Of a stretch of 64,000 nt of DNA, positions 1-401 are shown piece after piece (positions within the stretch are counted from its first letter, which is position 1; each line of letters opens with the position of its first letter). The translations under genes were made by a program, and so were the position numbers. The stretch spans positions 1 through 64,000 of the forward strand of contig JAJXYO010000030.1 of assembly GCA_021780495.1 (NCBI GenBank). Direction: 5' to 3'. Below the pieces are notes generated by a model. The model saw only the letters and a list, made by a program, of their open reading frames with translations. It was not told the DNA's origin and did not search any database. This stretch comes from Deltaproteobacteria bacterium (lineage in GTDB: Bacteria > Desulfobacterota > Desulfuromonadia > Geobacterales > Pseudopelobacteraceae).

Positions 1-46
1 CAACGCGGGAAGAAGGTACAACGGCTCGTTTTTTACATTCACCCAT
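1..46 (-). CDS. N-terminus of an unrecognised protein (partial, runs off the window)
   Basis: Only 15 codons are visible (Met-Gly-Glu-Cys-Lys-Lys-Arg-Ala-Val-Val-Pro-Ser-Ser-Arg-Val). The start is well supported: a perfect AGGAGG lies 8 bases upstream of the ATG, and a sigma-70-like promoter lies about 70 bases further upstream. The ribosome binding site is the 3' arm of a perfect 11-bp hairpin (separate entry), which suggests translational control. Fifteen residues are too few to name a family. In Geobacter relatives I would expect the phosphoribosyl pyrophosphate synthase gene after ispE and tRNA-Gln, but these residues do not look like it. Confidence 0.55.
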   Translation of the reverse strand, partial: MGECKKRAVVPSSRV

Positions 47-52
47 TTGGTG

Positions 53-92
53 AACCTCCTGATCTGAGATTGCAGCACAATATCAGGAGGTT
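53..92 (-). promoter_or_regulatory. Hairpin sequestering the Shine-Dalgarno site of the partial gene
   Basis: Positions 53-63 and 82-92 form a perfect 11-bp inverted repeat (AACCTCCTGAT / ATCAGGAGGTT). In the minus-strand transcript the downstream arm contains the AGGAGG of the partial gene. The 18-nt loop holds a smaller ATTG...CAAT stem. The geometry is that of an RNA thermometer, riboswitch expression platform or protein-binding leader. No known riboswitch core is recognised. Confidence 0.55.
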
Positions 93-117
93 GGAGCAAA
101 ATCAAAGACTCAACTGC

Positions 118-146
118 TTTTTATAGGTTTATTGATATGTATTCAA
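118..146 (-). promoter_or_regulatory. Probable sigma-70 promoter of the partial gene
   Basis: On the minus strand TTGAAT (141-146) and TAAAAA (118-123) are separated by 17 bases. The predicted start near position 111 gives a leader of about 65 nt that includes the whole hairpin over the ribosome binding site. Confidence 0.4.
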
Positions 147-326: not shown

Positions 327-401
327 TGGCTGGGGCGCCAGGGATCGAACCTGGGAATGCCGGAATCAAAATCCGGTGCCTTACCGCTTGGCGACGCCCC
401 A
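327..401 (-). tRNA. tRNA-Gln (UUG)
   Basis: The reverse complement folds into a standard cloverleaf. The acceptor stem is TGGGGCG with CGCCCCA, discriminator G and an encoded CCA (327-329). The anticodon arm is CCGGA-TTTTGAT-TCCGG with anticodon TTG, and the T arm carries GGTTCGATCC. The U1-A72 pair is typical of bacterial tRNA-Gln. The gene lies 56 bases downstream of ispE on the same strand. Confidence 0.97.

Follow-up and report, generated by a model that had tools for sequence, protein, structure and literature searches.

In IS10 and IS50 the promoter and an inverted repeat are placed so that transcripts from outside fold over the start region and native ones do not. ISEcp1, a member of the IS1380 family, has moved blaCTX-M genes worldwide and is clinically important. 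In the IS200 tnpA leader one stem occludes the ribosome binding site (RBS), and another stem ends impinging transcripts (PMC3196728, PMC12594629). The transposable modules of ISEcp1 and ISPme1 have been described (PMC9330008). We compare these systems with an element at the edge of a 64,000-nt stretch of deltaproteobacterial DNA (the window). The named IS1380 elements ISEcp1, IS1247, ISSsu5 and IS1678 resemble it in having a DDE transposase (PF13701), ends that start with CC, and one open reading frame. A further shared feature is the palindrome TCACC-N5-GGTGA, which in all four lies 73-75 or 99 nt inward of the left tip. They differ in that the window element has its start codon inside this palindrome, and an extra 11-bp stem on the RBS. 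IS200 shares with it a leader inverted repeat over the transposase RBS. However, the IS200 transposase is unrelated, and in the window element, whose predicted native transcript is missing one arm, the block would fall on read-through RNA only. With IS10 and IS50 it would share the layout. In our folding models the read-through RNA of the window element pairs its SD and the predicted native RNA leaves it fairly open. This likeness is in silico, it crosses to another family with other sequences, and the window stem is not conserved across its own family.

The window begins where contig C33 of a 3.68-Mb draft genome physically ends, and the break falls inside a repeat. This genome has 5 left ends of a multicopy IS, of which window 1-127 is one, and a search with a homologous element from a related genome found 4 right ends and one internal piece. 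Contigs C9, C56, C61 and C25 end in the same 127 bases, which differ at no more than one position (a G/T variant). The flanks of the five copies part exactly outside position 127. Since left-end copies lie at contig ends and right ends are found as well, the edge gene belongs to an IS that is present in at least 4-5 copies and breaks the assembly. The gene is unreadable here because base 1 is a contig end within the repeat. The rest of it could not be recovered elsewhere in this genome, as all five left ends stop at contig ends. The assembly is broken about 127 nt inside each of these copies (at window base 1 and in C9, C56, C61 and C25), which points to a k-mer of some 127. Where a gene of this genome lies at a window edge, it may be a fragment of an IS.

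The window leader is also present in nine other genomes of the family, and relatives have the full element. In one of these, L016, the leader runs into an open frame of 502 amino acids that starts with MGECKSRAV; the window frame starts with MGECKKRAV. The L016 transposase scores 88.9 bits against the DDE domain PF13701, above the gathering cut-off of 34.7, while the window gene is cut after 15 codons. The best NCBIfam model by far for the L016 protein is the IS1380 transposase NF033539. The score of 163.4 bits is under the curated cut-off of 180, so we file the element as IS1380-like, in a divergent subfamily. The transposases of the window's relatives have only ~25% amino acid identity to those of other lineages. 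The ends of the element, read inward, are CCTATAAAAAGCAGTTG on the left and CCTAAAAACGGCAGCTG on the right. These are imperfect terminal inverted repeats (TIRs) that begin with CC, as in the IS1380 family. The right flanks are frequently ATNAT or TTNAA when checked for a 4-5 bp target duplication; in this assembly no contig holds both ends of one copy. Neither the exact stem and start pattern in viral contigs nor the 127 nt in plasmids gave a match, and a search by sequence found no solved structure of a close relative of the transposase. The window edge gene is an IS1380-like transposase and window 1-127 is the left end of its IS (Table 1). Between the IS and a tRNA-Gln gene (327-401, minus strand) is a 22-nt inverted repeat at 244-292, 95% complementary with a 5-nt loop. 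It resembles a tRNA terminator or attenuator, but it does not have a clear T-run.

Table 1. Coordinates of the features at the left end of the element, in window positions.
Feature	Position	Strand	Remarks
IS1380-like left (transposase-proximal) end	1..127	-	tip at 127; element runs on past base 1
Transposase gene, first 15 codons, MGECKKRAVVPSSRV	1..46	-	cut by the contig end; N-terminus as in L010/L016
TCACC-N5-GGTGA palindrome	39..53	-	start codon at its centre; 74 nt from the IS tip; overlaps the last base of the stem
Stem, 3' arm (11 bp)	53..63	-	holds the Shine-Dalgarno sequence AGGAGG (60..55)
Predicted transcription start region	69..71	-	in the hairpin loop; from the position of the -10
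Putative -10 TATTGT, extended TG (TGATATTGT)	77..82	-	by inspection; 17-nt spacer; TATTGT or TATCAT in 9/9 close leaders
Stem, 5' arm (11 bp)	82..92	-	inside the promoter spacer
Putative -35 TTGATT	100..105	-	by inspection; TTGAT kept in 9/9 close leaders; below the promoter-scan threshold
Left terminal inverted repeat, CCTATAAAAAGCAGTTGA	110..127	-	matches the right end CCTAAAAACGGCAGCTG in full-length L016; TIRs of ~60 homologues

The initial annotation had described a perfect 11-bp stem over the RBS, and its geometry holds. The two arms (AACCTCCTGAT at 53-63, ATCAGGAGGTT at 82-92) are fully complementary with 18 nt between them, AGGAGG lies in the downstream arm, and the minus-strand ATG (46..44) starts 6 nt past the stem. 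Minimum free energy folding forms this stem, with a z of only -1.5 for the whole 144-nt leader. The window holds 12 distinct inverted repeats that pair perfectly over 11 bp or more around loops of 3-30 nt. Stem size alone is therefore not rare, and what is notable is the placement on the Shine-Dalgarno sequence (SD). With both arms present, as in read-through RNA, the SD is unpaired with a probability of about 0.00 in silico, so transcripts from outside are predicted to occlude the transposase RBS as they do in elements of the IS10, IS50 and IS200 type.

The promoter had been placed simply upstream of the hairpin. This does not stand, since the putative -35 and -10 flank the 5' arm. A TG sits one base ahead of the putative -10. 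The best promoter-like match is 8/12, under the threshold of a promoter scan that called none. As the putative promoter straddles the 5' arm, the native mRNA should start in the loop and have a fairly open RBS. In RNA modelled from the predicted start (from position 57-59 of the leader on) the SD is unpaired at 0.41-0.43 in the window variant and at 0.60-0.95 in the other leaders, in silico.

Nine distinct close leaders, two of them variants of this genome and the others from G018, G031, G036, G055, G044, G015 and G020, show how far the stem is conserved. Across them 92.9% of cells pair. None of the 11 pairs has changed in both arms; each departure breaks the pairing. The stem is broken in four of the nine leaders: G055 has two mismatches, G044 one, G015 three (5' arm); G020 has one (3' arm). 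G044 and G015 have only broken transposase matches or none, and G020 has a damaged tip, so some of the breaks coincide with decay. In the five leaders whose stem is intact (both variants of this genome, G018, G031 and G036) 0/22 arm columns vary, versus 12/35 other columns (Fisher p = 0.002; p = 0.04 for the 5' arm alone). In 35 leaders of the wider subfamily the RBS is occluded at a mean percentile of 0.44 relative to shuffles, with 7 leaders at or under 0.05. Average occlusion in these 35 leaders does not exceed that of shuffles, so an RBS hairpin was rejected as a general IS1380-like trait. The 11-bp stem belongs to one Geobacteraceae sublineage and is not a family feature. In three close relatives that do not have the AACCTCCTGAT arm (L036, L037 and L045) a short inverted repeat, CTGRCA...TGTCAG, surrounds a TATTAT -10 just before the SD.

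From the stem the initial annotation went on to translational control of the edge gene by temperature, ligand or protein, and only part of this survives. Occlusion of the RBS stands for any transcript with both arms. Control by temperature or ligand finds no support. At 65 C in silico the SD is unpaired at 0.005 and the stem stays closed, which is not how an RNA thermometer behaves. A search of the leader (1-127) against Rfam gave no hit, neither to a known aptamer model nor to any other RNA family, in agreement with the earlier remark that no known riboswitch core was recognised. Compensatory changes, which an alignment of leaders was meant to reveal, are absent from the nine close leaders. 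The annotation had also named as evidence against itself a stem without covariation, one missing from relatives with the same gene, or a transcript that starts inside the hairpin. Besides the lack of covariation, we find no 11-bp stem in the more distant leaders of the same transposase, and the predicted native start in the loop would be a case of the last. A switch on the native mRNA, be it a thermosensor, a riboswitch or one controlled by a protein, would account for a perfect stem over the SD that folds in silico. However, it must also account for a stem that is closed in silico even at 65 C, a leader that Rfam does not recognise, the lack of covariation and a predicted start that falls in the loop. 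Ligand sensing would also be an unlikely way to control an IS transposase. We consider such a switch very improbable.

In our reading the stem probably guards against read-through transcription rather than acting as a thermosensor or riboswitch. Because the 5' arm lies inside the transposase promoter, the native mRNA would begin at about 69-71 without that arm and be translatable. A transcript that enters from a neighbouring gene would carry both arms and hide AGGAGG. If the IS landed inside a transcribed region, the stem would shut off transposase production. The promoter, the transcription start and the role of the stem in read-through are all predictions from the layout of the leader. One can also imagine that the repeat has no role in RNA. 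It could be a chance or transient repeat, or a DNA operator over the promoter, that is still seen because the copies in one lineage are recent. The lack of covariation, the broken stem in 4/9 close leaders, the 12 repeats of similar size in the window and the absence of an occluded RBS in other members of the family all fit this. It does not explain why the complementarity is perfect on the SD, or why the 5' arm is invariant in the intact-stem copies while neighbouring columns vary. This second reading is a serious competitor, whose chances we put somewhat short of even. We lean, with modest confidence, towards two overlapping repeats with different jobs on one IS1380-like left end, where the stem would be the read-through shield and TCACC-N5-GGTGA a transposase site.

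The palindrome is what the subfamily conserves, and the stem is not. It is found in nearly all of ~70 subfamily leaders. Its distance to the tip is 74-76 nt in 29 leaders, 85-88 in 35 and 98 in 1; a further leader has it at 97 with a weak tip. No leader with a clear tip falls at 77-84 or 89-97. The two spacing outliers are L039, which has a left end cut short, and L098, which is a decayed leader. The sequence between the palindrome and the tip is not conserved across the spacing groups. Pairing of the palindrome is kept in all nine close leaders, in one by a G-U. Its hosts belong to the Desulfobacterota, Pseudomonadota, Nitrospirota, Acidobacteriota and Bacillota. We did not find the palindrome on right ends. 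The possibility that its arms are copies of this element's own TIR was dropped, since the likeness (GTTGA vs GGTGA) is too weak to count.

The start codon does not share this constancy. Some members have it inside the palindrome. In others it is 23-29 nt upstream, and the palindrome then encodes HPxGE. The transposase tree requires at least 8 changes in the position of the start codon and at least 4 in the spacing class. The coding palindromes use CAC for His in 16/16 cases (8.7 expected) and GGT for Gly in 16/16 (3.2 expected), but this test is partly circular because the leaders counted were found with the motif pattern. Three near-miss leaders read by eye (L111, L114 and L124) all have CAC. 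In place of the Gly codon two have GGT and one has AGT, so that no synonymous Gly codon is used. By comparison of these leaders, the palindrome is constrained at the nucleotide level and held at a fixed spacing from the tip. Fixed steps from the tip wherever the start codon is, together with fixed synonymous sites, suggest a site for a protein at the DNA level. It could be argued that the palindrome works instead as an RNA hairpin, by which the start codon is presented or hidden, as the ATG is in the loop in this element and pairing survives in 9/9 close leaders, one through G-U. This role is hard to keep when the palindrome contains the start, lies 23-29 nt downstream of it, or is 110 nt upstream of it as in ISEcp1, and when its distance from the tip moves in narrow steps. 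We regard the RNA hairpin as improbable.

The palindrome is also found in known IS1380 elements. In ISEcp1 (L189) the tip is at 337 and the TCACC of CTTTCACCCATTGGGTGAAAG at 412, a distance of 75 nt, although the transposase does not start until 523. Matches of 9/10 lie 75 nt from the tip in ISSsu5, at 73 nt in IS1678, and at 99 nt, within the coding sequence, in IS1247. The palindrome is also present in L154 (74) and L177 (98), where both TIRs are confirmed, and in L146, L148, L149, L153 and L168, where the tips are putative. Of shuffled leaders, 0.1-0.3% would be expected to have a 9/10 match at any place within the first 157 nt from the tip. The palindrome is not in every IS1380 lineage, as it is lacking in L151, L159, L164/L166, L169, L170, L175 and L179. 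When one tip distance is taken per lineage (10 lineages) the values cluster modulo 10.5 bp (p = 0.004), and more strongly modulo 11-11.5 bp. The lineages and the period were picked after the data were seen, so we regard helical phasing from the tip as likely but short of proof. Within clades, the narrow spacing is independent of phasing.

The CCATTAG-type IS1380 left ends (L176, L187, L041, L042 and L043) have a palindrome of their own, CTAATGG-AAN-CCATTAG. It is made of inverted copies of the inner box of their TIR, which makes it the best clue that the transposase is the binder. Two of the elements have it about 27 nt from the tip and the other three 48-50 nt, distances that lie about two helical turns apart. 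In some CCATTAG-type elements it is at the start codon.

All of this suggests that TCACC-N5-GGTGA is a helically phased protein site of the left end, and judging from these left ends the transposase is probably what binds it. The palindrome 74 nt from the tip would be a second transposase binding site on the left end only. In relatives the site would be one or two helical turns further in. Binding of transposase there may repress the promoter as well. The palindrome could instead be an operator for a host regulator, and in L154 it directly follows TATAAT, which is the classical position of an operator. Such an operator should not be kept across five host phyla with a spacing set from the IS tip, and the CCATTAG-type counterpart uses the TIR's own box. 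We think a host regulator is unlikely. For the transposase as binder we extend the argument to the IS1380 family, tentatively, as a possibility that we would not yet bet on. The family may have an accessory transposase site on the left end only, placed at whole helical turns (~75, 86 or 98 bp), so that the left end is committed and the right end is interchangeable.

The RBS stem alone would be a modest case of a known kind of transposon self-restraint. The palindrome matters more, as it is a position-locked site at one end in a group of elements that includes ISEcp1. If the hypothesis is true, a left-only accessory site would explain how ISEcp1 and ISPme1 capture their neighbours by means of loose substitutes for the right end. 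How IS1380 transposases tell left from right and tolerate false right ends becomes testable with a 15-bp target. The palindrome apparently has not been reported before. We found no report of it in open-access papers, with subscription journals and ISfinder notes outside the scope of the search.

There are two further details of the palindrome in other elements. In ISEcp1 on the E. coli plasmid NZ_LR890199 (L189:409-429), CTTTCACCCATTGGGTGAAAG is perfect with 10-bp arms and lies ~110 nt before the transposase ATG. In L146, L148 and L149 a second palindrome, GGTGATATAGAATATCACC, adjoins the TCACC palindrome and overlaps a -10-like sequence.
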